Shown here piece by piece: positions 26,196 through 54,455 of a DNA stretch of 64,000 nt. Within the stretch, counting starts at the first letter, position 1. Every line of letters starts with the position of its first letter. Under the pieces are notes generated by a model that worked only from the letters and a program-made list of their open reading frames with translations, was not told where the DNA came from and did not search any database. The DNA comes from Owenia fusiformis (Eukaryota > Annelida > Polychaeta > Sabellida > Oweniidae): contig CAIIXF020000009.1 in the NCBI GenBank assembly GCA_903813345.2, forward strand, positions 31,621,259-31,685,258. The letters run 5' to 3'. The position numbers and the translations under genes are program-made.

Positions 26196-26198
26196 AAG

Positions 26199-27805
26199 AA
26201 TTGCAAGTGATAGATAAACTTGTTAGAGTTGCAATGAATAGATAAACTTGCTAGAGTTGAAATGAATAGATAATCTTGTTAGACTTGCAATGAATAGATA
26301 ATCTTGTTAGACTTGCAATGAATAGATAAACTTGTTAGAGTTGCAATGAATATATAAACTTGTTAGACTTACAATGAATAGATAAACTTGTTAGAGTTGC
26401 AATGAATAGATAAACTTGAATAGATAAACTTGCTAGACTTGCGATGGATAGATAATCTTGTTATACTTGTAATGAATAGATCAAGGTGTTGGAGTTGCAA
26501 TGAATAGATAATATTTGAGTTGCAATGAATAGATAATCTTGTTAGACTTGCGATAAATAGATACACTTGTTAGACTTGCAATGAATAGACAAACTTGTTA
26601 GACTTGCAATGAATATATAAACTTGTTAGACTTGTAATGAATAGATAATCTTGTTAGACTTGCAATGAATAGATAAACTTGTTAGGCCTGCAATGAATAG
26701 ATAAACTTGTCAGAGTTGCAATGAATAGATAATCTTGTTAGAGTTGCAATGAATAGATAAGCTTGTTAGACTTGCGATAAATAGATACACTTGTTAGACT
26801 TGCAATGAATAGACAAACTTGTTAGACTTGTAATGAATATATAAACTTGTTAGACTTGTAATGAATAGATAAACTTGTTAGGCCTGCAATGAATAGATAA
26901 ACTTGTCAGAGTTGCAATGAATAGATAAACTTGCTAGAGTTGCAATGAATAGATAAGCTTGTTAGACTTGCAATGAATAGATAAGCTTGTTAGACTTGCA
27001 ATGAATAGATAAACTTGTTAGACTTGTAATGAATATATAAACTTGTTAGACTTGTAATGAATAGATAAACTTGTTAGACTTGTAATGAATAGATAAACTT
27101 GTTAGACTTGTAATGAATATATAAACTTGTTAGACTTGAAATGAATAGATAAACTTGTTAGGCCTGCAATGAATAGATAAACTTGTCAGAGTTGCAATGA
27201 ATAGATAAACTTGTTAGAGTTGCAATGAATAGATAAACTTGCTAGACTTGCAATGAATAGATAAACTTGTTAGAGTTGCAATGAATAGATAAACTTGTTA
27301 GACTTGCAATGAATAGATAAACTTGTTAAAGTTGCAATGGATAGATAAACTTGTTAGACTTGCACAGAATAGATAAACCTGTTAGAGTTGCAATGAATAG
27401 ATAAACTTGTTAGAGTTGCAATGAATAGATAATCTTGTTAGACTTGCAATGAATAGATAATCTTGTTAGACTTGCGATGAATAGATAAACTTGCTAGAGT
27501 TGAAATGAATAGATAATCTTGTTAGACTTGCGATGAATAGATAAACTTGCTAGAGTTGCAATGAATAGATAATCTTGTTAAACTTGCAATGAATAGATAA
27601 TCTTGTTAGACTTGCAATGAATAGATAAACTTGTTAGACTTACAATGAATCTCATAGATGATTTTGTTAAAGTTGCAATGAATAGATAATCTGGGAAGAA
27701 TTGCATGGATTAGATAATCTCGTTAGAGTTTCAAGGAATAGATATTATATTGTTAAAGTTGCCAGCAAAAGATGATCTTGTCAAAGTTGTAAGGAATAAA
27801 TATAC
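26199..27805. repeat. 28-bp minisatellite, ~57 copies
   Basis: The unit is close to TTGCAATGAATAGATAAACT plus TGTTAGAC. Variants alternate AGACTTGC/AGAGTTGC and AAACTT/AATCTT. A rarer variant, TTAGGCCTGC, occurs at about 26682, 26878 and 27158, spaced by 7 and 10 units, which shows higher-order duplication. The last ~150 bp are degenerate. There are no unique spacers. The GAT/TAGATAAAC content leaves no meaningful frame. Confidence 0.97.
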
Positions 27806-36396: not shown

Positions 36397-37843
36397 AATC
36401 CTAACGCTATGTACTTAAAACTTACTGATCTCTGTTGGTACATGGTTCGTGAGACTGGAAATAGAAATGACCATTCTGTGTTCAAGCTTAACATGATGCA
36501 GGCGCCTGTATGTTACATTAGGTGAACAATTTTGAGAAATAATATGTAATTGTTTCTCTGTGATCATTCTAGCTTTTGAATAAATTGATTAACAATAACA
36601 CGACAAAGATATTTCCGTTGCCCAACATAATATACATACTACAAGCAGAATCGTTGATGAGTTCAAATATCCTGTTTTTGATTACACAATACCCTGCATG
36701 TTAGAGGAGAGACAAGGGAGGATACAAAACTAAGTCAACGACGTCATCGACGGCATTTTGAATCATCTTAATAAATCAATGAAAAGGAAGAATGGAGACA
36801 AATGTGATTTCGTTATGAGAAGGGATAGTAATGATCGAGAAACTTACAAGTGAGTGGAGAATTGTGAATTACTCAACTAAGTCTGAAGGTGTGCAGAACG
36901 GCCTGACACAATCAATTTGATGCTCATATTGGCTTATTGGACAACCTGTTAATCCCATGGGAGCGATTCATCGATACTTCATCCGTAACTATGGAAACAA
37001 GTGAACATCAACAGCCTGTACCAAAAGGGCACTTTGCCCTCCTCCCCCTATTGAGACATGACTGCGCATAAGCTCGTAACATGAGTTACGTTATATCTAT
37101 ATCTACGAGTTATCTATACAGGGTGTCAAATGGCGCTGCCCCGCCCCCCATCCACAGCATAACCTAGAATAGGAACACACCCATGCTATTTACCATTGGA
37201 AAGAGCATTTAATTCTTGTTAAAGTGTGAAAAGATGTAGGATGCATGATAGGAAATAATACATATTCTGAACTCACTTTTAAAAGAGTATTGCCATTTTA
37301 GGTAGCTTAAAATGATATGAATTTAAAAGGGCATGAAAAAGAGCAGTGACTTTCTCAAGAAATCTCATAACTTTTTGAGGTCCTTGTGAAGGGAATCTTT
37401 GAAAAATCTGTTTTCTCAAGCTTCAGCTTCCATAAGTATCTCTGTTTTTCCATTATATGGGCTCAATTTGCAATGCAGCATTCTAGTCGGAGTTGTTTCT
37501 CAGGATTTCTTCAAAATTAACAAGAAATAGCAAGTGACAAAAATCATGCTCTGAAAGGGGGCATGACACCATCTGACACCCTGTATATGGAAACTTGCCA
37601 TATAATACAAAAAATGACCCCGTCATCCCATATCACCAGGCCTTAGCTTTTAAGATCATATTCCAGGGGCGCCCCCAGGAATTTTCCAAGGGGTGCGTCT
37701 ACATCTGAAAGTTTCGAATCATAGCTTGCACTTGAAGCTTCAGAAAGAAGAGAAATACACTTGGACCGAGGATATAGTTTCTTCACCTTTTTCGCTATAT
37801 TAGTTGAATAAGAAAAACTTCTTTGTCCAGCCTTAAACACACA
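36397..37843. other. No recognised feature
   Basis: Unique AT-rich intronic sequence. Confidence 0.4.
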
Positions 37844-37928
37844 CAGCAGAGAGAGTGGGTAGTGTCGCAATGGACCGATTATTTCAAAAAGCAGAGCTTT
37901 TGTTTATATTGGGTCTGGTGGCAAAAGG
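37844..37928 (+). repeat. 85-bp repeat, inverted partner at 54372-54455
   Basis: CAGCAGAGAGAG, then GTGTCGCAATGGACCGATTA and TTGGGTCTGGTGGCAAAA. The inverted partner lies beyond the other end of the tandem array, so the 15.35 kb array sits between the two copies. Confidence 0.85.
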
Positions 37929-38425
37929 ACCTTATACACCCTCCATTGGGATCTCCCCATGGGAAAAAAATAATTCATCTGATTTTTCAAAATGAGTATT
38001 CTGCTTCAATTATTACATTTATATGCACACTAGTATCTTGTTGACCTATATTCAGCACTGTATTGATGTATAGGCCACTTATTAGGGTCATAATTCAATC
38101 ATGAAGTGTAGAGGCATAGATTCCAAACCAGGAAGTATTTTTGTGTCTGTCAAAATCCATTTACATCCTACGCATCCCTGCATCTTATCCAAATATGTTA
38201 CTACATAATGAAATATAATAGTATATTCTTTGGTTTTACAAACTTGTTTGATATTTGATAAGTGTAAAAGTTGTTTTTGGAGTATTTTTCTATAGCCATT
38301 TTGTAGGGAAAAAATGATGAAAAAATGTACAATCTTTTTAATTTAAGTATGACCTGAATCGATTGCAAACTTCATATTTGCACATTTGATGAGATAAACC
38401 ATTTGAGTCGTATTGTGAAATTATT

Positions 38426-40544
38426 AGACTCCAGATGAAAATCTGGAGTCTATTGCTTTTGCCAGTTTTCTTTATTATTATTAGACTCCAGATGAAAATC
38501 TGGAGTCTATTGCTTTTGCCAGTTTTCTTTATTATTATTATTAGACTCCAGATGAAAATCTGGAGTCTATTGCTTTTGCCAGTTTTCTTTATTATTAGAC
38601 TCCAGATGAAATCTGGAGTCTATTGTTTTCGTCAGTTTTCTTATTCTTCTTATTCTTATTATTATTATTATTCTAAACCAGTTTTCTCAATAACCATAAG
38701 GTTTTCAGTAAAGTCAGTTATTTGGTAAATTTAGGTCCAGAATCTAGTTCCTCGGAAATTGGGTCAAATTTTTATCTAGGTCAAAGGTCAAGAACTAGGT
38801 CAAATTCAGTACTTTGTCACTTTTTTCGATTTTCTCGGTCGTCCTTCAATATTTTTCATCCGGGTTTTTTTCATTGTGTTCCTTATAAAAAAGTAGAAAA
38901 CCTAGGGTCGATTTAGTTTTTGGATATCTCAAACAGATTTCGAGATATCAGTGTCCGAAAACGAGGTCCAAAAAAATGTTCTTCGAATCAAATGTCCAGG
39001 ATATTGGTCTTATAGGAAATTTTATCAGGATTCCGAATCTGAAAACCAAATTCGAATCAGACTTCCGGTTCGGAAGTTATGGCGTTTTGAAAGCTCAAAA
39101 ATCGCTAAATTTGGTGCCCATGTTAAGTCAATGGGGAAAAAGATTTTTTTGAAGTGAAAAATACGAAATATAGACTGAGTTCAGCTAAATATAATGAAAG
39201 CCTATGAAAGAAGGGAACCTCGAAGGCTACCTAACTTCAAAATTTGGACACAAAAATCCCTAGGTCAAAATCTAGGTCAAATTCATAGTTTATCCTTATT
39301 TTTGCGATTCTGACACTACACTTTAATTATATTCCTCGAAATTTTGTATGCATGTAGCCAAGAGTGTGCTAATAGTGTTAGCTTTTTGCCGTCAGAAAGT
39401 ATTGTGCCCCACTTTTGAGATATGGTGTCCGAAAAGTAGGTCAAAATATAAAGCTCTCCAAATTTAACATTTGAGTTATGAATTAAGTATAGAATTTTAT
39501 CAGGAATCCGAATCTGCAAAGCAAATTTCGATCCGACTCCCGGTTTGGAAGTTATGACATTTTGAAAGCTCAAAAATCGCTAAATTTAGTGCCCCATGTT
39601 ATGTCAATGGGAACAAAAATTTTTTTGAAGTGTAAAATACGAGATATAGACTAAGTACAGCTTAAAATAATGAAAGCCTATGAAAGAAGGGAACCTCGAA
39701 GGCTACCTAACTTCAAAATTTGGACACAAAAATCCCTAGGTCAAAATCTAGGTCAAATTCATAGTTTATCCTTATTTTTGCGATTCTGACACTACACTTT
39801 AATTATATTCCTCGAAATTATGTATACATGTAGCCAAGAGTGTGCTAATAGCGTTAGCCTTTTGCCGTCAGAAAGTATTTTGACCCACTTTTGAGATATG
39901 GTGTCTGAAAAGTAGGTCAAAATAAAAAGTTCTCCAAATTTAACGTTTGAGTTATGAATTAAGAGTAGAATTTTCTCAGAAATCCGAATCTGCAAACCAA
40001 ATTTCAATCAGACTTCCGGTTCCGAAGTTATGGCGTGTCCGAAAAGTAGGTCAAAATAAAAATTCGCCAAATTTAACGTATGAGTTATGAATTAGGGGGA
40101 AATTTTTGTCAGGAATCTGAATCTACAAATCAAATTTCGAACCGACTTCCGGTTCGGAAGTTATGGCGTTTTGAAATTTCAAGAAAAATCGATCTGATGG
40201 TATCCTGATAGAAAGTCAAGAGTAGAGAAGCAAATATTGAAAAATGCATCCATCCTTCCTTTCTGATCCTATCCTATCCTTCCTATCTACCCTTGCTTCG
40301 TTTCCTCTCCTTCCTATTCTATCCCTTCTTCCTATTCTATTCTATCCTTCTTTCCTATTCTATCCTATCGTTCCTTCCTATTCTATCCTATCCTTCCTTC
40401 CTTTTTAATCCATCCATCCATCCATCCTTCTTTTTCTTGATGACTTAGTTCATTTTGGATGACTTGGCTTATTCTGGATGACTCGGCTAAAAAATGTCTA
40501 GATCTGGAGTCTGAAATTGAACTCGTTCAATTTCCAAAATCTAG
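38426..40544 (+). mobile_element. Array unit A
   Basis: It has four successive copies of the 5' hairpin (38426, 38483, 38543, 38597), each in a TTATT context. It then has a perfect DR1 motif AGGTCAAAGGTCA (38778-38790), three ~475-bp internal repeats (GAGATATNNNGTGTC near 38941, 39417, 39892), a CCTAT/CCATCC microsatellite (about 40247-40430), a GGATGACT block, then the 3' hairpin and CTAG at 40541-40544. Confidence 0.75.
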
Positions 40545-42159
40545 TTATTAGACTCCAGATGAAATCTGGAGTCTATTGTTTTCGTCAGTTTTCTTATTAT
40601 TATTATTCTTCTTCTTATTATTCTAGCCCAGTTTTCTCAATAACCATAAGGTCTTCAGTAAAGTCAATCATTTGGTCAATTTAGGTTCAGTATCTAGTTC
40701 TCTGGAAATTGGGTCAAATTTTTATCTAGGTCAAAGGTCAAGAACTAGGTCAAATCCAGTACTTTGTCACTTTTTTCGATTTTCTCGGTCATCCTTCAAT
40801 ATTTTTGATCCGGGTTTTTTTCATTGTGTTCCTTATAAAAAAGTAGGACACCTAGGGTCGATTTAGTTTTTTGATATCTAAAACCGATTTCGAGATATCA
40901 GTGTCAGAAGACGAGGTCCAAAAAAAAGTTCTCCGAATCAAATGTCCAGGATATTAGTCTTATAGGAAATGTTCTCAAAATTCCGAATCTGAAAACGAAA
41001 TTTCGATCCGACTTCCAGTTCGGAAGTTATGGCGTTTTGAAAACTCAAAAATCGCTAAATTTGGTGCCCATGTTAAGTCAATGGGAAAAAATATTTTTTT
41101 GAAGTGAAAAATACGGAATAAAGACTGAGTTCAGCTTCATATAATCAAAGCCTTTAAAAGAAGGAGACCTCAAAAGCCATCTAGCTTCAAAATTTGGACA
41201 CCGAAATGCCTAGGTCAAAATCTAGGTCAAATTCATAGGTTTTCCTTATTTTTTCGATTCTGACACTACACTTTAATTATATTCTTCGAAATTGTGTATA
41301 CATGTAGCCAAGAATATGCTAATAGTGTTAGCCTTTTGCCGTCAGAAAGTATTTTGATCCACTTTTGAGATATGGTGTCCGAAAAGTAGGTCAAAATAAA
41401 AAAGTTCTCCAAATTTAATATATGAGTTATGAATTAAGGGTAGAATTCTGTCAGGAATCCGGATCTGCAAACCAAATTTCGATCCGACTTCCGGTTCCGA
41501 AGTTATGGCGTGTCCGAAAAGTAGGTCAAAATAAAAAATCTCCAAATTTAACAGATGAGTTATGAATTAGGGGCAGAATTTTGTCAGGAATCCGAATCTG
41601 CAAACCAAATTTCGATCCGACTTCCGGTTCGGAAGTTATGGCGTGTCCGAAAAGTAGGTCAAAATAAAAAATCTCCAAATTTAACGTATGAGTTATGAAT
41701 TAGGGGTAGAATTTTGTCAGAAATCTGAATCTGCAAATCAAATTACGATCCGACTTCCGGTTCGGAAGTTATGGCGTTTTGAAATTTCGAGAAAAATCGA
41801 TCTGATGGTATCCTGATAAAAAGTCAAGAGTAGAGAAGAAAATATTGAAAAATTCATCCATCCTTCCTATCTCATCCTATCCTATCCTTCCTATCTATCC
41901 TTCCTTTGTATCTTTTCCTTCCTATCCTTCCTATCCTATCCTATCCTTTCTTCCTATTCTATTCTATCCTATCCTTCTTTCTTATTCTATCCTATCGTTC
42001 TTTCCTATTCTATCCTATCCTACCTTCCTATTTTATTTATCCATCTTTTTCTGGATGACTCAGTTTATTCTGGATGACTCGGCTTATTCTGGATGACTCG
42101 GCTAAAAAAAGTCTAGATCTGGAGTCTGAAATTGAACTCGTTCAATTTCCAAAATCTAG
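40545..42159 (+). mobile_element. Array unit B
   Basis: One 5' hairpin (40550-40574). DR1 motif at 40728-40740. Several short ~130-bp repeats around GGTTCGGAAGTTATGGCGTG (41490-41780), then a CCTAT-rich microsatellite (41857-42045) and CTAG at 42156-42159. Closest to unit A. Confidence 0.75.
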
Positions 42160-44215
42160 TTATTATTCTTCTTCCTCCTTCCCAGATTTCTCACCAACTA
42201 GAAGAGCTTACTTTAAGCTGCTTACATGATTAACTAGGGAATGTATCTGGCTTTCTGGGAAATTAGGTCAAATTTTTATCTAGGTCAAAGGTCAAGAACT
42301 AGGTCAAATCCAGTACTTTGTCACTTTTTCCCATTATCTCGGTCGTCCTTCAATATTTTTGATCCTGGTTTTTTTCATTGTGTTCCTCATAAAAAAGTAG
42401 AAAACCTAGGGTCGATTTAGTTTTTTGGTATCTCAAACCGATTTCGAGATATCAGTGTCCGAAAACGAGGTCCAAAAAAAATTTCACCGAATCCAATGTC
42501 CAGGATATCAGTCTTATGGGAAATTTTCTCAGGATTCCGAATCTGAAAACCAAATTTCGATCTGACTACCGGTTCAGAAGTTATGGCGTTTTGAAAATTC
42601 AAAAATCGCTAAATTTGGTGCCCCATGTTAATTCAATGGGAAAAAATATTTTTTTAAAGTGTAAAATACAAGATATAGACTAAGCACAGCTAAACATAAT
42701 GGAAGCCCATAAAAGAAAGGGACCACAAGACCTTCTTTTCATAAAAATTTGGACACCAAAATGCCTAGGTCAAAATCTAGGTCAAATTCAAAGTTTTTCC
42801 TTATTTTTGCGATTCTGACACTACAGATTAATTATATTCTTCGAAAATTTGTGTACATGTAGCCAAGAGTGTGCTTATAGTGTTAGCCTTTTGCCGTCAG
42901 GAAGTATTTTGACCCACTTTTGAGATATGGTGTCCGAAAAGTAGGTCAAACTAAAAAGTTCTCCAAATTTAACGTATGAGTTATGAATTAAGGGTAGAAT
43001 TTTCTCAGGAATCCAAATCTGCAAACCAAATTTCAATCCGGCTTTTGGTTTGGAATTTATGTCGTTTTGATAGCTCAAAAATCGCTAAATTTGGTGCCCC
43101 ATGTTATGGCAATGGGAAAAAAGATTTTTTTGAAGTGTAAAATACAAGATATAGACTGAGTACAGCTTAATTTAATGAAAGCCTATTAAAGAAGGGGACC
43201 TCTAAGGCTACTTAGCTCCAAAATTTGGACACCAAAATGCCTAGGTCAAAATCTAGGTCAAATTTATAGTTTTCCCTTATTTTTGCGATTCTGACACTAT
43301 ATTTAAATGATTTGCTTTAAAATTTTGTATACAGGTAGCAAAGAGTATGCTAATAGTGTTAGCGTTTTGCCGTCAGAAAGTATTTTGACCCACTTTTGAG
43401 ATATGGTGTCCAAAAAGTAGGCCAAAGTAAAAAGTTTTCCAAAATTAACGTATGAGTTATGAATTAAGGGTAGAATTTTCTCAAAAATCTAGATCTGCAA
43501 ACCAAATTTCGATCCGACTACTTGTTCTGAAGTTATGGCGTTTTGAGATCTCAAAAATCGCTAAATGTGGTGCCCCATGTTAAATCAATGGGACCGAATA
43601 ATTTTTTGAAGTGTAAAAATACGAGATATAGAATGAGTACAGCTAAACATAATGAAAGCCCATAGAAGAAGGGGACCTCAAAAGCTACTTTCCTTCAAAG
43701 TTTGGACACCAAAATACCTAGTTTAAAAAATCTAGGTCAAATTCATAGTTTTTTTCTTATTTTGCGATTCTGACACTACACTTCAATGATATTCTCCGAA
43801 ATTTTGTATACTTGTAGCAAAAATTGCAATCCGACCCCCGGTTTAGATTCTACGCCATTTTGAAGTTTGAAATTCGCACTTGCCAGTATTCACGATGCAG
43901 ATTGATCAAATATACTTTCAAAAATTCCTGCATACCCTACTTTACCTCTCTACCTACTCAGCTACTTATTTGACTACTTACTCAATTACTTAATTAGTTA
44001 TTACTTACTTAGCAACTTACTCAGCTACTAACTCAGGTACTTACTCAGCTACCTACTCAGCGTTTTACTCAGTTACTTACTCAGCTACTTACTCAACTAC
44101 TACTAAGGTACTTACTCAGCTAATTACTCAGTTACTTACTCAGCTCTTTACTGATCTATCTAGGTAAAATAAATCTGGAGTCTTAAATTGAACTTGTTCA
44201 ATTTCACAAATCTAG
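42160..44215 (+). mobile_element. Array unit C
   Basis: It starts CTTCTTCCTCC and lacks the 5' AGACTCC hairpin. DR1 at 42282-42294. It ends in an ACTTACTCAGCT repeat (43950-44150), then the 3' hairpin and CTAG. Nearly identical to units D and G along its length. Confidence 0.75.
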
Positions 44216-46282
44216 TTATTCTTCTTCTTCCTCCTTCCCAGATTTCTCACCAACTAGAAGAGCTTACTTTAAGCTGCTTACATGATTAACTAGGGAATGT
44301 ATCTGGCTTTCTGGGAAATTAGGTCAAATTTTTATCTAGGTCAAAGGTCAAGAACTAGGTCAAATCCAGTACTTTGTCACTTTTTCCCATTATCTCGGTC
44401 GTCCTTCAATATTTTTGATCCTGGTTTTTTTCATTGTGTTCCTCATAAAAAAAGTAGAAAACCTAGGGTCGATTTAGTTTTTTGGTATCTCAAACCGATT
44501 TCGAGATATCAGTGTCCGAAAACGAGGTCCAAAATAAATTTCACCGAATCCAATGTCCAGGATATTAGTCTTATGGGACATTTTCTCAGGATTCCGAATC
44601 TGAAAACCAAATTTCGATCTGACTTCCGGTTCAGAAGTTATGGCGTTTTGAAAATTCAAAAATCGCTAAATTTGGTGCCTATGTTAAGTCAATGGGAAAA
44701 AATATTTTTTTGAAGTGTAAAATACGAGATATAGACTAAGCACAGCTAAACATAATGGAAGCCCATAAAAGAAAGGGACCACAAGACCTTCTTTTCATAA
44801 AAATTTGGACACCAAAATGCCTAGGTCAAAATCTAGGTCAAATTCAAAGTTTTTCCTTATTTTTGCGATTCTGACACTACAGATTAATTATATTCTTCGA
44901 AAATTTGTGTACATGTAGCCAAGAGTGTGCTAATAGTGTTAGCCTTTTGCCGTCAGGAAGTATTTTGACCCACTTTTGAGATATGGTGTCCGAAAAGTAG
45001 GTCAAACTAAAAAGTTCTCCAAATTTAACGTAAGAGTTATGAATTAAGGGTAGAATTTTCTCAGGAATTCAAATCTGCAAACCAAATTTCAATCCGGCTT
45101 TTGGTTTGGAATTTATGTCGTTTTGATAGCTCAAAAATCGCTAAATTTGGTGCCCCATGTTATGGCAATGGGAAAAAAGATTTTTTTGAAGTGTAAAATA
45201 CAAGATATAGACTGAGTACAGCTTAATTTAATGAAAGCCTATTAAAGAAGGGGACCTCGAAGGCTACTTAGCTCCAAAATTTGAACACCAAAATGCCTAG
45301 GTCAAAATCTAGGTCAAATTTATAGTTTTCCCTTATTTTTGCGATTCTGACACTATATTTAAATGATTTGCTTTAAAATTTTGTATACAGGTAGCAAAGA
45401 GTATGCTAATAGTGTTAGCGTTTTGCCGTCAGAAAGTATTTTGACCCACTTTTGAGATATGGTGTCCAAAAAGTAGGCCAAAGTAAAAAGTTTTCCAAAA
45501 TTAACGTATGAGTTATGAATTAAGGGTAGAATTTTCTCAGAAATCTAGATCTGCAAACCAAATTTCGATCCGACTACTTGTTCTGAAGTTATGGCGTTTT
45601 GAGATCTCAAAAATCGCTAAATTTGGTGCCCCATGTTAAATCATTGGGACCGAATAATTTTTTGAAGTGTAAAAATACGAGATATAGAATGAGTACAGCT
45701 AAACATAATGAAAGCCCATAGAAGAAGGGGACCTCAAAAGCTACTTTCCTTCAAAGTTTGGACACCAAAATACCTAGTTTAAAAAATCTAGGTCAAATTC
45801 ATAGTTTTTTCTTATTTTGCGATTCTGACACTACACTTCAATGATATTCTCCGAAATTTTGTATACTTGTAGCAAAAATTGCAATCCGACCCCAGGTTTA
45901 GATTCTACGCCATTTTGAAGTTTGAAATTCGCACTTGCCAGTATTCACGATGCAGATTGATCAAATATACTTTCAAAAATTCCTGCATACCCTACTTTAC
46001 CTCTCTACCTACTCAGCTACTTATTTGACTACTTACTCAATTACTTAATTAGTTATTACTTACTTAGCAACTTACTCAGCTACTAACTCAGGTACTTACT
46101 CAGCTACTTACTCAGCTACCTACTCAGCTTTTTACTCAGTTACTTACTCAGCTACTTACTCAACTACTACTAAGGTACTTACTCAGCTAATTACTCAGTT
46201 ACTTACTCAGCTCTTTACTGATCTATCTAGGTAAAATAAATCTGGAGTCTTAAATTGAACTTGTTCAATTTCACAAATCTAG
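44216..46282 (+). mobile_element. Array unit D
   Basis: Near copy of unit C with scattered single-base changes. DR1 at 44338-44350; ACTTACTCAGCT block at about 45990-46215, one repeat longer than in C. The 138-aa plus-strand frame at 44297 is repeat translation. Confidence 0.75.
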
Positions 46283-48133
46283 TTATTATTAGACTCCAGA
46301 TTGAAAATCTGGAGTCTATTGTTTTTGCCTGTTTTCTTTATTATTATTATTATTAGACTCCAGATTGAAAATCTGGAGTCTATTGTTTTTGCCTGTTTTC
46401 TTATTATTATTATTATTCTTTCTTTCTTCCTCCTAACAGATTTTCTCTCCAACTATAACATCTTACTTAATCCAACCTACATGGTTGACTAGGGAATGTA
46501 TCTGGCTTTCTGGGAAATTAGGTCAAATTTTTATCTAGGTCAAAGGTCAAGAACTAGGTCAAATCTTACATTTTCAACATTCTTCATCATATCTTCGTCA
46601 ATATTCTTCGTAACTCCTTCATCTTTTTTTCATCGTGTAGCTTAGAAAAAGGCGAATCAAAGATATGACATCAGAATTTTGATTACTCTTACCGATTTTG
46701 AGATATGGCGTCCGAAATGTAGGTCACGCCTTAACATGCTCCAAATCGAATGTGTGAGCTATGAAAAAGATGTAGAATTTTCTCAGGAATCCAAATCTGC
46801 AAACCAAATTTGGATCGGACTTCCGGTTCGGAAGTTATGTTGTTTTGAAAGCTCAAAAATCGCTAAATTTGGTGCCTATGTTAAGTCAATGGGAAAAAAG
46901 ACTTTTTCGAAGTGTAAAATACAGGATATAGACTGAGTACAGCTTAACATAATGAATGCTTATAAAAGAAGGGGACCTCAAAAGCTATATAGTTTCAAAA
47001 TTTTGACACCAAAATGCCTAGGTCAAATTCTAGGTCAAATTCATAGTGTTTCCTTATTTTTACGATTCTGACACTACACTTTAATAATTTACTTCCAAAT
47101 TTTGTATACAGGTAGGAAAGAGTAAGCTTATAGTGTTAGCCTTTTGCCGTCAGAAAGTATTTTGACCCACTTTTGAGATATGGTGTCCGAAAAGTAGGTC
47201 AAAATAAAAAGTTCTCTAGATCCAACGTATGAGTTATGAATTAAGGAAAGAATTTTCCCAGGAATCCGAATCTGCAAACCAAATTTCGATCCGACTTCCG
47301 GTTCGGAAGTTATGGCGTGTCCAAAAAGTAGGTCAAAATAAAAAAATTCCAAATTTAACGTATGAGTTATGAATTAGGGGTAGAATTTTGTCAGGAATCC
47401 GAATCTGCAAACCAAATTTCGATCCGACTTCCGGTTTGAAAGTTATGGCGTTTTGAAAGCTCAAAAATCGCTAAATTTGGTGCCCCATGTTATGTCAATG
47501 AGAAAAAGGATTTTTTGAAGTGTAAAATACCAGATATAGACTGAGTACAGCTTAATATTCTGAAAGCCTATAAAAGGAGGGGACCTCAAAGGCTATCTAG
47601 CTTTAAAATTTGGACGCAAAAATGCCTTGGTCAAAATCTAGGTCAAATTCATAGTTTTTCCTTATTTTTGCGATTCTGACATTACACTTTAAGGATTTGC
47701 TTCAAAATTTTGTATACAGGTAGCAAAGAGTGTGCTTATAGTGTTAGCCTTCTGCTGTCAGAAAGTTTTTTGACCCACTTTTGAGATATGGTGTCCGAAA
47801 TGTAGGTCAAAATAAAAAATTCTCCAAATTTAACGTATGAGTTATGAATTAAGTGTAGAATTTTCTCAGGAATCAGAATCTTTAAACCAAATTTCGATCT
47901 AACTTCTGGTTAGATAGTTATAGCGGTTTGAAGTCTCGAAAAGTCGATATGATGATATCCCCATGTTAAGCTAATAGAGTCGAAGATAGCCTTCTTAAAA
48001 GTTGTCTAAATGTCTATATTCTAGCTGACTCAGCTTATTCTGAATGACTCAGCTTACAAGTTCTGGATGACTCAGCTTAAAAAAATGTGGAATCTGGAGT
48101 CTTAAATTGAACTTGTTCAATTTACATGTCTAG
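46283..48133 (+). mobile_element. Array unit E
   Basis: Two successive 5' hairpins (46291, 46355), in the variant AGACTCCAGATT-GAA-AATCTGGAGTCT with a longer stem. DR1 at 46537-46549. A distinct left part (ACATTTTCAACATTCTTCAT) is shared only with F. It ends with TGACTCAGCTTA repeats. Confidence 0.75.
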
Positions 48134-49851
48134 TTATTTTTCTTCCTCCTCACCAAATTTCTCGTCAACTATAACAGCTTACTTAATCCAACTTACATGG
48201 TTAACTAAAGACTGAAACCGGCTTTCTGGGAAATTGGATCAAATTTTTATCTAGGTCAAAGGTCAAGAACTAGGTCAAATCTTACATTTTCAACATTCTT
48301 CATCATATCTTCGTCAATATTCTTCGTAACTCCTTCATCTTTTTTTCATCGTGTAGCTTAGAAAAAGGCGAATCAAAGATATGACATCAGAATTTTGATT
48401 ACTCTTACTGATTTTGAGATACGGCGTCCGAAATGTAGGTCACGCCTACACATGCTCCAAATCGAATGTGTGAGCTATGAAAAAGATGTAGAATTTTCTC
48501 AGGAATCCAAATCTGCAAACCAAATTTAGATCAGACTTCCGGTTCGGAAGTTATGGCGTTTTGAAAGCTCAAAAATCGCTAAATTTGGTGCCTATGTTAA
48601 GTCAATGGGAAAAAAGACTTTTTCGAAGTGTAAAATACAGGATATTGACTGAGTACAGCTTAACATAATGAATGCTTATAAAAGAAGGGGACCTCAAAAG
48701 CTACATAGCTTCAAAATTTGGACACCAAAATGCCTAGGTCAAAATCAAGGTCAAATTCATAGTTTTTCCTTATTTTTACGATTCTGACACTACACTTTAA
48801 TAATTTACTTCAAAATTTTGTATACAGGTAGCGAAGAGTGTGTTAATGGTGTTAGCCTTTTGCCGTCAGAAAGTATTTTGACCCACTTTTGAGATATGGT
48901 GTCCGAAAAGTAGGTCAAAATAAAAAGTTCTCCAGATTCAATGTATGAGTTATGAATTAAGGGTAGAATCTTCTCAGGAATCCGAATCTGCAAATCAAAT
49001 TTCGATCCGACTACCGGTTCGGAAGTTATGGCGTGTCCAAAAAGTAGGTCAAAATAAAAAAAATTCCAAATTTAACGTATGAGTTATGAATTAGGGGTAG
49101 AATTTTGTCAGGAATCCAAATCTGCAAACTAAATTACGATCCGACTCCCGGTTCGAAAGTTATGGGGTTTTGAAAGCTCAAAAATCGCTAAATTTGGTGC
49201 CCCATGTTATGTCAATGAGAAAAAGGATTTTTTGAAGTGTAAAATACCAGATAAAGACTGAGTACAGCTTAATATTCTGAGAGCCTATAAAAGGAGGGGA
49301 CCTCGAAGGCTATCTAGCTTTAAAATTTGGACGCAAAAATGCCTTGGTCAAAATCTAGGTCAAATTCATAGTTTTTCCTTATTTTTGCGATTCTGACATT
49401 ACACTTTAAGGATTTGCTTCGAAATTTTGTATACAGGTAGCAAAGAGTGTGCTTATAGTGTTAGCCTTCTGCCGTCAGAAAGTTTTTTGACCCACTTTTG
49501 AGATATGGTGTCCGAAATGTAGGTCAAAATAAAAAATTATCCAAATTTAACGTATGAGTTATGAATTAAGGGTAGAATTTTGTCAGGAATCAGAATCTTT
49601 AAACCAAATTTCGATCTAACTTCTGGTTAGATAGTTATTGCGGTTTGAAGTCTCGAAAAGTCGATATGATGATATCCCCATGTTAAGCTAATAGAGTCGA
49701 AGATAGCCTTCTTAAAAGTTGTCTAAATGTCTATATTCTAGCTGACTCAGCTTATTCTGAATGACTCAGCTTACAAGTTCTGGATGACTCAGCTTAAAAA
49801 AAATGTGAAATCTGGAGTCTTAAATTGAACTTGTTCAATTTACATGTCTAG
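48134..49851 (+). mobile_element. Array unit F
   Basis: Near copy of E without the 5' hairpins. DR1 at 48253-48265. 3' end CATGTCTAG at 49843-49851, as in E. Confidence 0.75.
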
Positions 49852-51900
49852 TTATTATTCTTCTTCTTCTTCCTCCTTCCCAGATTTCTCACCAACTAGA
49901 AGAGCTTACTTTAAGCTGCTTACATGATTAACTAGGGAATGTATCTGGCTTTCTGGGAAATGAGGTCAAATTTTTATCTAGGTCAAAGGTCAAGAACTAG
50001 GTCAAATCCAGTACTTTGTCACTTTTTCCCATTATCTCGGTCGTCCTTCAATATTTTTGATCCTGGTTTTTTTCATTGTGTTCCTCATAAAAAAGTAGAA
50101 AACCTAGGGTCGATTTAGTTTTTTGGTATCTCAAACCGATTTCGAGATATCAGTGTCCGAAAACGAGGTCCAAAAAAAATTTCACCGAATCCAATGTCCA
50201 GGATATCAGTCTTATGGGAAATCTTCTCAGGATTCCGAATATGAAAACCAAATTTCGATCTGACTACCGGTTCAGAAGTTATGGCGTTTTGAAAATTCAA
50301 AAATCGCTAAATTTGGTGCCCCATGTTAATTCAATGGGAAAAAATATTTTTTTGAAGTGTAAAATACGAGATATAGACTAAGCACAGCTAAACATAATGG
50401 AAGCCCATAAAAGAAAGGGACCACAAGACCTTCTTTTCATAAAAATTTGGACACCAAAATGCCTAGGTCAAAATCTAGGTCAAATTCAAAGTTTTTCCTT
50501 ATTTTTGCGATTCTGACACTACAGATTAATTATATTCTTCGAAAATTTGTGTACATGTAGCCAAGAGTGTGCTTATAGTGTTAGCCTTTTGCCGTCAGGA
50601 AGTATTTTGACCCACTTTTGAGATATGGTGTCCGAAAAGTAGGTCAAACTAAAAAGTTCTCCAAATTTAACGTATGAGTTATGAATTAAGGGTAGAATTT
50701 TCTCAGGAATCCAAATCTGCAAACTAAATTTCAATCCGGCTTTTGGTTTGGAATTTATGTCGTTTTGATAGCTCAAAAATCGCTAAATTTGGTGCCTATG
50801 TTATGGCAATGGGAAAAAAGATTTTTTTGAAGTGTAAAATACAAGATATAGACTGAGTACAGCTTAATTTAATGAAAGCCTATTAAAGAAGGGGACCTCG
50901 AAGGCTACTTAGCTCCAAAATTTGGACACCAAAATGCCTAGGTCAAAGTCTAGGTCAAATTTATAGTTTCCCTTATTTTTGCGATTCTGACACTATATTT
51001 AAATGATTTGCTTTAAAATTTTGTAAACAGGTAGCAAAGAGTATGCTAATAGTGTTAGCGTTTTGCCGTCAGAAAGTATTTTGACCCACTTTTGAGATAT
51101 GTAAAAAGTTTTCCAAAATTAACGTATGAGTTATGAATTAAGGGTAGAATTTTCTCAGAAATCTAGATCTGCAAACCAAATTTCGATCCGACTACTTGTT
51201 CTGAAGTTATGGCGTTTTGAGATCTCAAAAATCGCTAAATTTGGTGCCCCATGTTAAATCATTGGGACCGAATAATTTTTTGAAGTGTAAAAATACGAGA
51301 TATAGAATGAGTACAGCTAAACATAATGAAAGCCCATAGAAGAAGGGGACCTCAAAAGCTACTTTCCTTCAAAGTTTGGACAACAAAATACCTAGTTTAA
51401 AAAATCTAGGTCAAATTCATAGTTTTTTCTTATTTTGCGATTCTGACACTACACTTCAATGATATTCTCCGAAATTTTGTATACTTGTAGCAAAAATTGC
51501 AATCCGACCCCAGGTTTAGATTCAACGCCATTTTGAAGTTTGAAATTCGCACTTGCCAGTATTCACGATGCAGATTGATCAAATATACTTTCAAAAATTC
51601 CTGCATACCCTACTTTACCTCTCTACCTACTCAGCTACTTATTTGACTACTTACTCAATTACTTAATTAGTTATTACTTACTTAGCAACTTACTCAGCAA
51701 CTAACTCAGGTACTTACTCAGCTACTTACTCAGCTACCTACTCAGCTTTTTACTCAGTTACTTACTCAGCTACTTACTCAACTACTACTAAGGTACTTAC
51801 TCAGCTAATTACTCAGTTACTTACTCAGCTCTTTACTGATCTATCTAGGTAAAATAAATCTGGAGTCTTAAATTGAACTTGTTCAATTTCACAAATCTAG
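49852..51900 (+). mobile_element. Array unit G
   Basis: Near copy of C and D. DR1 at 49980-49992. It differs by a ~22-base deletion at about 51102 (after GAGATATG) and by a run of extra CTT units at its start. Confidence 0.75.
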
Positions 51901-53779
51901 TTATTATTCTTCTTCTTCCTCCTTCCCAGATTTCTCACCAACTAGAAGAGCTTACTTTAAGCTGCTTACATGATCAACTTGGGAATGTATCTGGCTTTCT
52001 GGGAAATTAGGTCAAATTTTTATCTAGGTCAAAGGTCAAGAACTAGGTCAAATCCAGTACTTTGTCACTTTTTTCAATTTTCTCGGTCGTCCTTCAATAT
52101 TTTCAATCCGGTTTTTTTTCATTGTGTTCCTCATAAAAAAGTAGGGGAAAACAGGTCGATTTAGTTTTTTGATATCTCAAACCGATTTCGAGATATCAGT
52201 GTCCGAAAACGAGGTCCAAAAAAAAGTTCTCCCAATTCAATGTCCATGCTACTGGTCTTGTAGGAAATTTTCTCAGGATTCCGAATCTGAAAACCAAATT
52301 TCGATCCGACTTCCGGTTCGGAAGTTATATCGTTTTGAAAGCTCAAAAATCGCTAAATTTGGTGCCCATGTTAAGTCAATGGGAAAAAAGATTTTTTTGA
52401 AGTGAAAAATACGAAATATAGACTGAGTTCAGCTAAATATAATGGAAGCTTTTAAAAGAAGGGGACCTCAAAAGCCATCTAGCTTAAAAATTTGGACACA
52501 AAAATGCCAAGGTCAAAATCTAGGTCAAATTCAAAGTTTTTCCTTATTTTTGCGATTCTGACACTACACTTTAATAATATTCTTCGAAATCGTGTATACA
52601 TGTAGCCAAGAGTGTGCTAATAGTGTTAGCCTTTTGCCGTCAGGAAGTATTTTGACCCACTTTTGAGATATGGTGTCCCAAAAGTAGGTCAAAATAAAAA
52701 AATCTTCAAATTTAACTTATGAGTTATGAATCAGAAGTAGAATTTTGTCAGGAATCCGAATCTGCAAACCATATTTCGATCCGACTTCCGGTTCGGAAGT
52801 TATGGCGTGTCCAAAAAGTAGGTCAAAATAAAAAAATTCTAAATTTATCGTATGAGTTATGAATTAGGGGTAGAATTTTATCAGGAATCCGAATCTGCAA
52901 ACCAAATTTCGATTCGACATCTTGTTCAGAAGTTATGATGTTTTGAAAGCTCAAAAATCGCTAAATTTGGTGCCCCATGTTAAATCAATGGGACCGAATA
53001 ATTTTTTGAAGTGTAAAAATACAAGATATAGAATGAGTACAGCTAAACATAATGAAAGCCCATAAAAGAAGGGGACCTCAAAAGCTACTTTCCTTCAAAA
53101 TTTGGACACCAAAATACCTAGTTCAAAATCTAGGTCAAATTCTTAGTTTTTTCTTATTTTTGCAATTCGGACACTACACTTCAATGATATTCTTCGAAAT
53201 TTTGTATACATGTAGCAAAGAGTGTGCTTATAATGTTAACTTTTTGCCGTCAAGAAGTTTTTAGGCCCACTTTTGAGATCTGGTGATCGAAATGTAGGTC
53301 AAAATAAAAAGTTCTCCAAATTTAACGTATGAGTTATGAATTAGGGGCATAATTTCCTAAGGAATCCGGATCTGAAATTAAAATTGCAATCCTACCCCCA
53401 GTTAAGCCATTTTGAAGTTTGAAATTCGCACTTGCCAGTATTCACGATGCAGATTGATCAAATAAACTTTCAAAAATTCCTACATACCCTACTTTACCTC
53501 CCTACCTACTCAGCTACTTATTTGACTACTTACTCAATTGCTTAATTAGTTATTACTTACTTAGCTACTCACTCAGCTACTAACTCAGGTACTTACTCAG
53601 CTACTTACTCAGCTACCTACTCAGCTTTTTACCCAGTTACTTACTCAGCTACTTACTCAACTACTACTAAGGTACTTACTCAGCTAATTACTCAGTTACT
53701 TACTCAGCTCTTTACTGATCTATCTAGGTAAAATAAATCTGGAGTCTTAAATTGAACTTGTTCAATTTCACAAATCTAG
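51901..53779 (+). mobile_element. Array unit H (last)
   Basis: The left part is like unit A/B internal sequence and the right part is like C/D/G (ACTTACTCAGCT block, 53495-53712), so it looks recombinant. DR1 at 52026-52038. It ends CTAG at 53776-53779, then TTAAGTTTGC, the apparent flank. Confidence 0.75.
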
Positions 53780-54371
53780 TTAAGTTTGCAATTGATTCAG
53801 GTCATAGTGTATTTTTGGTATTTCTGTGATAATCAATGGAAATCAATGGCCTCTATTGGGATCTGCTGATATCCTCATGTTAAGTCAATGGTGCACAGCC
53901 CCATGTAAGTCAATACAACCTTACTGAACGAAATGATCCCTATCTCAGCTTATGTGTGTCCGAGCACTTTAATATTTTCCAAAGTATTATATGACATTTT
54001 ATTCTTCATGTTACACCTACGAATGATTCATTTTGACCATAGGGATATTTGCCAATAATTGCACCTTGTCCTTTAGCTAAGACATTACTTTTGAACCTCG
54101 GATAACAGGCTAGTGGGGCGACGCTAATCCATAACTCGAAATAAAAAATAAGGCGTTTGCCTTTTTGCCCATTGACTTGTATGGTGACAATTTTGTACAG
54201 GTAACTTGCCAAATTTTATTCTGAATTTAATGAGCTTCTTAGTAATTTGACAGCTTTTAAAGGTAGATAAATATGAAATAAATGTCAACAACCTAAAGGT
54301 TAATAACAGCGCAATGATTTGAATTATGATTGAGTGGTCAATTTCTGACAACCATTTCTGATCAGGTTACA

Positions 54372-54455
54372 TTTTGCCACCAGACCCAATATGAACAAAA
54401 GCTCTACCTTTTGAAATAATCGGTCCATTGCGACACCACCTTCTCTCTCTGCTGT
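54372..54455 (-). repeat. 84-bp repeat, inverted partner of 37844-37928
   Basis: On the minus strand it reads CAGCAGAGAGAGAAGG, GTGTCGCAATGGACCGATTA, TTGGGTCTGGTGGCAAAA. About 90% identical to the left copy by eye. Similarity stops sharply at both ends. Confidence 0.85.

Follow-up and report, generated by a model that had tools for sequence, protein, structure and literature searches.

Same-strand arrays of Helentron-like elements in Owenia fusiformis with 5′ and 3′ ends in mirrored order

Eight noncoding units lie head-to-tail on one strand

We analyzed a window of 64,000 nucleotides from the annelid Owenia fusiformis (GenBank assembly GCA_903813345.2, contig CAIIXF020000009.1, positions 31,621,259 to 31,685,258 of the forward strand). 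Window positions 38426-53779 hold eight noncoding units, A to H, that are 1,615-2,119 bp each, lie on one strand, and share a common 3′ end. The units have the structure of HINEs (non-autonomous Helentrons), and the order of their 5′ and 3′ ends suggests that the array very probably arose by repeated insertion of HINE copies in a TTATT tract inside the 5′ end of older copies. The features are as follows. A 5′ module is the hairpin segment described in the next section, types I-IV are types of element ends, and a bracket partner is the 3′ end assigned to a module by last-in-first-out pairing. Module limits are approximate.

38426-53779 (+): whole nested array; single precise insertion in a dispersed repeat, of which five copies lack the array (L033-L037)
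38426-38474 (+): severed 5′ module, type II, bracket partner of G (module scan, bracket pairing)
38483-38534 (+): severed 5′ module, type II, bracket partner of D (module scan, bracket pairing)
38543-38590 (+): severed 5′ module, type II, bracket partner of C (module scan, bracket pairing)
38597-40544 (+): unit A, type I, with its own 5′ module at 38597 (3′ end and module scan)
40550-42159 (+): unit B, type I, with its own 5′ module (3′ end and module scan)
42160-44215 (+): unit C, type II body without 5′ module (3′ end, identity, bracket pairing)
44216-46282 (+): unit D, type II body without 5′ module (3′ end, identity, bracket pairing)
46291-46346 (+): severed 5′ module, type III, bracket partner of F (module scan, bracket pairing)
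46355-48133 (+): unit E, type III, with its own 5′ module (3′ end, module scan, identical copy elsewhere)
48134-49851 (+): unit F, type III body without 5′ module (3′ end and module scan)
49852-51900 (+): unit G, type II body without 5′ module (3′ end and identity)
51901-53779 (+): unit H, type II body that bracket pairing leaves without a module (3′ end and pairing)
53737-53779 (+): example of a 3′ end, with 3′ subterminal inverted repeat ATCTGGAGTCT, hairpin AAATTGAAC..GTTCAATTT, and CTAG (end of unit H)
37924-38425 (+): left flank, dispersed host repeat (97.6% identity with the left flank of another array, ARR2, across 503 bp)
53780-54049 (+): right flank, same host repeat (97.4% over 270 bp, the extent compared, to the right flank of ARR2)

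An initial annotation had described eight units that end in a common hairpin plus CTAG, each followed at once by TTATT. These ends were located at 40544, 42159, 44215, 46282, 48133, 49851, 51900, and 53779, and all seven inner junctions read CTAG|TTATT. One point needs correction: the 5′ hairpin AGACTCCAGAT...ATCTGGAGTCT does not stand at the start of every unit. It has seven copies, of which four are stacked at 38426-38654, one is at 40550, and two are stacked at 46291 and 46355; C, D, F, G, and H are without it. When both strands of the window were searched with up to one mismatch, the sequence AGACTCCAGAT had 22 matches, all exact and all within the array; the expectation from 100 shuffles is 1.0, with a maximum of 4.

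Tandem repeats of ∼133 and ∼476 bp are found inside the units, plus short repeats ahead of the 3′ end. The longest open reading frame (ORF) in the window, and the sole one of at least 130 amino acids, encodes 138 amino acids in unit D (protein families were not searched with it). Scans of the window with Rfam at the gathering threshold and for tRNAs returned nothing.

The outer limits of the array, 38426 and 53779, are set by the matching empty sites in other copies of the host repeat. Among the five host-repeat copies without the array, four read TTATTAAG and one reads TTATGAAG, and the filled site equals the empty site plus the array and two T. ARR2 (C1:27103500-27115500) occupies the same TT in another copy of this repeat. 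Its units are different, and the site has therefore probably been hit twice. Two inverted repeats were also seen here: one of 84 bp and 93% identity flanks the array (37843-37926 and 54372-54455), and one with 25-bp arms adjoins the insertion site (38348-38372 and 53782-53806).

The units have the structure of HINEs

An intact element follows a flanking TT and reads AGACTCCAGAT-loop-ATCTGGAGTCT-AT..., with either CAGTTTTC or CAGTATTC next. A TTATT tract leads into the body, which is followed by ATCTGGAGTCT, a hairpin, and CTAG, after which TT follows again. The 5′ module is ∼50 bp long and consists of the hairpin and a short tail ending in TTTTC or TATTC. The TTATT repeats come next, so that the tract begins ∼45-50 bp inside the 5′ end. 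At the 3′ end, ATCTGGAGTCT is followed by a palindrome with an 8-9 bp stem and a 4-nt loop, six to seven bases, and CTAG. The subterminal inverted repeats (subTIRs) are 11 bp long and asymmetric in position: AGACTCCAGAT stands right behind the 5′ TT, and ATCTGGAGTCT starts 42-43 bp before the 3′ end, in solo copies as well as in the window. The 3′ palindrome AAATTGAAC..GTTCAATTT lies 10-11 bp from the end and is of modest stability (z-scores of -1.9 and -2.7 for the two ends folded).

Asymmetric subTIRs, a 3′ palindrome, insertion in T-rich DNA with no clear duplication of the target site, and the lack of coding capacity are the hallmarks of HINEs, and judged by this structure the units are HINEs, as the initial annotation had proposed from the AGACTCCAGAT and ATCTGGAGTCT repeats. 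Structure and copy number together suggest that they are spread by rolling-circle, copy-and-paste transposition, for which a Helentron would be the source of the enzyme.

Canonical Helitrons have a 5′ TC and a 3′ hairpin followed by CTRR. Assignment to this group was considered and rejected: the 3′ CTAG is present, yet TTAGACTCC forms the 5′ end and insertion takes place at TT. Helitron insertion is described as falling between A and T (PMC5148889).

The layout matches that given for HINE or DINE-1-like elements of mite and Drosophila. Those elements are described with subTIRs of 12-15 bp, of which the 5′ copy lies 2-4 nt inside the terminus and, in the mite, is palindromic, with distances to the 3′ end of 38-60 bp for the 3′ subTIR and 8-35 bp for the 3′ palindrome, with internal tandem repeats or microsatellites, and with T-rich targets that have at least two T on each side (PMC4067079). 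The Owenia elements differ in their 11-bp subTIR and in forming recursive same-strand nests at one 5′ site. Similarly, Cg_HINE elements of the Pacific oyster are reported to have an 11-12 bp 5′ subTIR, a complementary inverted repeat 1-12 bp away, a microsatellite, central tandem repeats, and a 3′ subTIR with a palindrome (PMC7492417).

A different, non-rolling-circle class of element that inserts into itself and duplicates a 2-bp TT target is improbable, although it is compatible with some of the data. Filled sites differ from empty ones by the element and two T at the three sites compared, and this pattern fits a TT duplication as well as it fits terminal Ts of the element. However, the published descriptions of HINEs (PMC4067079; PMC7492417) agree with what is seen here, namely asymmetric subTIRs, a hairpin near the 3′ end, tandem repeats in the center, and T-rich targets, and terminal inverted repeats are missing from the tips.

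HINE copies cluster on one strand and insert at TT

Searches of the 498-Mb assembly with the 3′ end (up to three mismatches) gave 1,738 matches, 947 and 791 on the two strands, and the reversed control gave none. Clustering was assessed for the 100 exact 3′ ends listed, all on contig C1. Among these, 71 are in clusters with gaps below 6 kb, and there are 52 neighboring gaps of this size compared with 1.7 expected at random. Neighboring ends less than 10 kb apart are on the same strand in 53 of 53 cases, versus 20 of 40 for those at least 30 kb apart.

Twenty copies that are isolated in this listing were read. A 5′ end was found in 11 of them and is always TT|AGACTCCAGAT...ATCTGGAGTCTAT; TT follows the 3′ end in 19 of the 20. 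Copies elsewhere in the genome thus start and end at the points initially proposed. For solo copies and arrays together, TT precedes all 62 modules and follows 82 of 83 3′ ends. One solo copy (s6) is preceded by part of another module. Another, s4 (C1:944026-944107), has two stacked type III modules and one 3′ end, as would be expected if a nested copy had been mobilized from its leftmost 5′ end.

The genome contains 2,567 exact modules. Of the first 100 listed, again all on C1, 70 are in same-strand stacks of two to six. Spacings within these stacks are 49-71 bp in 46 of 47 cases and 124 bp in one, and no other gap is below 1,200 bp. The TTATT repeats behind the module are a hot spot of insertion. 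AGACTCCAGAT directly follows the module tail GTTTTCTT 749 times and a TCTAG end 366 times, counts that are not strict subsets of the modules because the patterns score the 11-base arm and not the whole module.

To find empty sites, the two flanks of the window array and of each of ten solo copies were joined and compared with the genome. Forty candidates were scored, of which 24 span the site of the window array, 14 that of solo copy s1, and two that of s5; the remaining eight solo copies had no match among the 40. In the 12 empty sequences read from these three sites, the flanks meet at a single TT in 11, and one window-type copy has a G. TT in T-rich DNA is the insertion target, in agreement with the T-rich insertion claimed initially.

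5′ modules and 3′ ends pair like brackets

Insertion into older copies makes a specific prediction. HINEs would be moved in trans by a Helentron protein whose machinery inserts at TT in T-rich DNA, and the element's own TTATT tract would be such a target. The tract is T-rich on one strand, and a newcomer should therefore enter in the same orientation as its host. Each entry would leave the host's 5′ module to the left of the newcomer and the remaining host, starting with TTATT, to its right. With repetition, severed modules would be stacked on the left, and bodies would follow in a row, each directly behind the previous CTAG. Because the host module stays upstream of the newcomer and the host body downstream, modules and 3′ ends should pair like brackets.

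To examine this pairing, 5′ and 3′ ends were assigned to types I-IV, which are linked in 11 solo copies with both ends (two of type I, two of type II, six of type III, and one of type IV). The order in the window is (II (II (II (I I) (I I) II) II) (III (III III) III) II) II). There are seven modules for the eight units, and the types of all seven bracket pairs agree. Accordingly paired, G would contain D and F, D would contain C, C would contain A and B, and F would contain E. Unit H has no module left and is assumed to be the outermost copy. This placement is tentative in that type alone does not show which of the four type II units lost a module.

The comparison was extended to 14 arrays with 58 modules and 63 3′ ends: the window array, one more on C9, and 12 of the 19 clusters in the C1 list that have at least two exact 3′ ends. 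A 16-end cluster at C1:32.78-32.83 Mb is outside this sample. Bracket pairing gives matching types in 37 of 46 pairs, or 37 of the 41 with both sides typed, while first-in-first-out pairing of the same arrays gives 17 of 46. When modules were shuffled within arrays, the mean was 18.1 and the maximum 31, and none of 20,000 shuffles reached 37. Three of the five untypable pairs involve modules with a TTTCAT loop, each paired with a type III end. For nested pairs that are not adjacent (13 arrays), the bracket partner matches in 18 of 24 cases and the next downstream 3′ end in seven of 24.

Three individual arrays are fully balanced. ARR4 (C1:3413500-3431800; L006-L008, L058, L059, L068) has eight modules and eight ends, and all eight pairs agree in type. 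ARR9 reads II IV | IV II, and ARR10 has three modules, two of them untyped, and three ends. ARR6 reads IV II III | III II, at which point the fetched stretch ends. Fetched stretches also cut off some partners in ARR3, ARR7, and ARR13 and on the left side of ARR8. Elements like A occur behind unlike stacks, II II II I in the window and III III I in ARR11; the stacks therefore belong to places and not to element families. In ARR4, a member of a second HINE-like family (∼1.57 kb; 5′ hairpin AGAATGCCG..., 3′ ...CGGCATTCT...CTAG) lies between two modules, within the TTATT tract that follows a module of type III.

The agreement of bracket pairs is far above that of shuffled orders, and we therefore consider it highly likely that copies repeatedly inserted in the tract of older copies. 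The initial annotation had offered insertion into the T-rich junction of a previous copy. Its T-rich target is borne out, but the main target is the TTATT tract ∼50 bp inside the older copy's 5′ end, and the units are therefore nested and not merely abutted.

A number of observations weigh against this interpretation. The permutation restricted to nested pairs is weaker, with 215 of 20,000 shuffles reaching the observed 18, and the typing rule was formulated after solo copies and arrays had been viewed. Four of the 41 typed bracket pairs fail (two in ARR1, one in ARR3, and one in ARR8), 17 of the 63 ends have no module, and 12 of the 58 modules have no end. ARR1, with four modules and eight ends, fits only if modules were lost, which affects four ends, and the same must be supposed for H and for one end in ARR2. 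ARR8 and ARR12 each leave two more ends unaccounted for, and ARR11 leaves one surplus module. In the 6.6 kb fetched for ARR5, two ends were seen but not a single module, although three stacked same-strand modules are listed 4.8 kb further left. Finally, inner copies are expected to be the youngest, yet the outermost unit H has listed relatives of 99-100% identity and the inner unit B has a best listed full-length relative of 95%. These lists are incomplete, and the value for B counts mildly against nesting.

Relatedness of the units and other origins of the array

Units A and B are 92% identical, C, D, and G 99.0-99.1%, and E and F 96%; the closeness of G to C and D noted initially is thus correct. 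H is 90% identical to C, D, and G, resembling them at the ends and less so in the middle. Neighbors diverge by up to 25% (B and C). Relatives elsewhere were taken from lists that hold best candidates only and set lower bounds; those for D and H do not include the place of the query itself. Among listed copies, A has one relative of 98% (C9:19176562-19178427) and three of 97%, compared with 92% for its neighbor B. Thirteen listed copies elsewhere match D at 99%, no less closely than C does. The body of E is 100% identical over 1,709 bp to C9:31746282-31747990 (L078), which lies ∼79 kb downstream in another nest, and E is 97% identical to many other copies versus 96% to F. The identical copy of E is a recent jump, and perhaps a local one. 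An attempt to derive the insertion order from the closest listed relatives (A 98%, B 95%, D 99%, E 100%, H 100%) was abandoned, as these values do not sort by nesting depth.

Among the other origins of the array, multiplication of unit blocks by unequal recombination or segmental duplication, which the initial annotation had deduced from the subfamily order, is very unlikely. Similar neighbors (A-B, C-D, E-F) would be expected from such events, and the module losses in ARR1, ARR2, and H fit contraction of 50-bp module repeats. However, these neighbors are not mutual closest relatives among the listed copies, and recombination would copy modules along with their units and not mirror their order. 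In addition, the locus with the 100% copy of E (C9:31.75 Mb) has four type II modules, the E twin, and then other units. Its neighbors and modules differ from those in the window, and duplication of an E-F-G block was rejected for this locus.

The initial annotation also proposed rolling-circle read-through, in which replication would run past the 3′ end and concatemers of one element would be inserted head-to-tail. The single-strand, head-to-tail order is as this process would produce, yet we regard it as a most improbable source of the array. Read-through predicts a module at each junction and no stacks, but five of the eight units are without a module and modules are stacked. Moreover, concatemers of one element do not account for the 25% divergence between B and C, for units A, D, and E being as close or closer to listed copies elsewhere than to their neighbors, or for the 17 of 46 matches under first-in-first-out pairing. 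End-to-end insertion into the TT just past the CTAG of a previous copy would always have had a possible target, given the TT after 19 of 20 solo copies and 82 of 83 ends overall, and it fits single junctions of the A|B kind, in which a 3′ end is succeeded by a whole element, as does a second entry in the remainder of the same tract; it is equally improbable, however, because it leaves every unit its module, produces no severed stacks, and does not account for units C, D, F, G, and H or for the mirrored types.

Repeated insertion in the tract of older copies may also have a functional side, although we put this forward only as a speculative extension. The TTATT tract could be a landing pad that is kept by selection and spares host genes by attracting newcomers to older copies. 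Nested copies would stay mobile because the first 5′ module on the left could still be transposed together with the closest 3′ end. The bracket code would record the nesting order of jumps at a locus, and families that have the machinery in common would share the pad, for which the second HINE-like family in the tract of ARR4 could be cited. The reason for the preference for the tract is otherwise suggested by its T-rich composition.

Comparison with known Helitron-type arrays

Self-insertion of Helitrons has been proposed before. The Helitron2 element FoHeli of Fusarium oxysporum also has asymmetric terminal inverted repeats and a 5′ hairpin, and some copies repeat their first 31-85 nt (PMC5148889). 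These repeated 5′ termini are attributed there to self-insertion, and one three-copy tandem is left undecided (PMC5148889). FoHeli thus provides single cases, as far as the parts of that paper at hand describe, whereas Owenia has 2,567 exact modules, up to eight units per fetched array, and a pairing test that favors self-insertion. Nesting likewise gives several termini in maize Helitrons, but the example in the portion available has several 3′ ends, and a fixed self-target is not described in it (PMC3288121). For mite and Drosophila HINEs, clusters, adjacent copies, and bypassed termination are mentioned, but not recursive nests at a fixed site in the sections consulted (PMC4067079). For Cg_HINE, array-like self-nesting was not seen in the sections consulted, and the word "nested" is absent from the main text (PMC7492417). 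Relative to these partly covered sources, the Owenia arrays differ in scale, in the recursion at one fixed site, and in that bracket pairing can decide the matter. Bracket-like recursive Helentron nests were not found described in the literature searched, of which coverage was partial.

Tandem arrays of Helitron-type elements have previously been interpreted as bypassed termination. The two origins, read-through and self-insertion, can be told apart by matching the leftover 5′ ends to 3′ ends, a test that favors self-insertion in the arrays sampled. The pairing also yields a relative insertion history for each array. Repeat annotation may label the bodies as 5′-truncated elements and the stacks as minisatellites, and Tandem Repeats Finder does call the module stacks in the window minisatellites. 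The arrays offer a natural system for examining how a transposon comes to target itself.

Helentron Rep genes in the genome

The genome has 58 matches to the Rep domain (PF14214), 23 of them in open frames of at least 3,000 amino acids. The frame at C6:36035560 also encodes a PIF1-like helicase and, downstream, a C-terminal endonuclease. An autonomous Helentron with the same ends (TTAGACTCCAGAT, hairpin-CTAG) was not found beside the Rep matches fetched. Neither a 3′ end nor a 5′ module of the HINE family was present downstream of nine and upstream of five Rep matches, where several stretches stop short of the element end; only two lone words resembling AGACTCCAGAT (at most two mismatches) were seen. 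Comparison of the HINE units with the fetched Rep loci, excluding upstream stretches L079-L083, revealed nothing in common beyond a 23-bp word. Three loci of one Helentron family lose similarity past a different small hairpin without CTAG, as judged by eye. Contigs C13 and C515 each have three Rep matches in open frames of at least 3,000 amino acids, among further Rep matches.

Elsewhere in the window, positions 26197-27744 are occupied by 54.7 copies of a 28-bp tandem repeat with no similarity to the array units.

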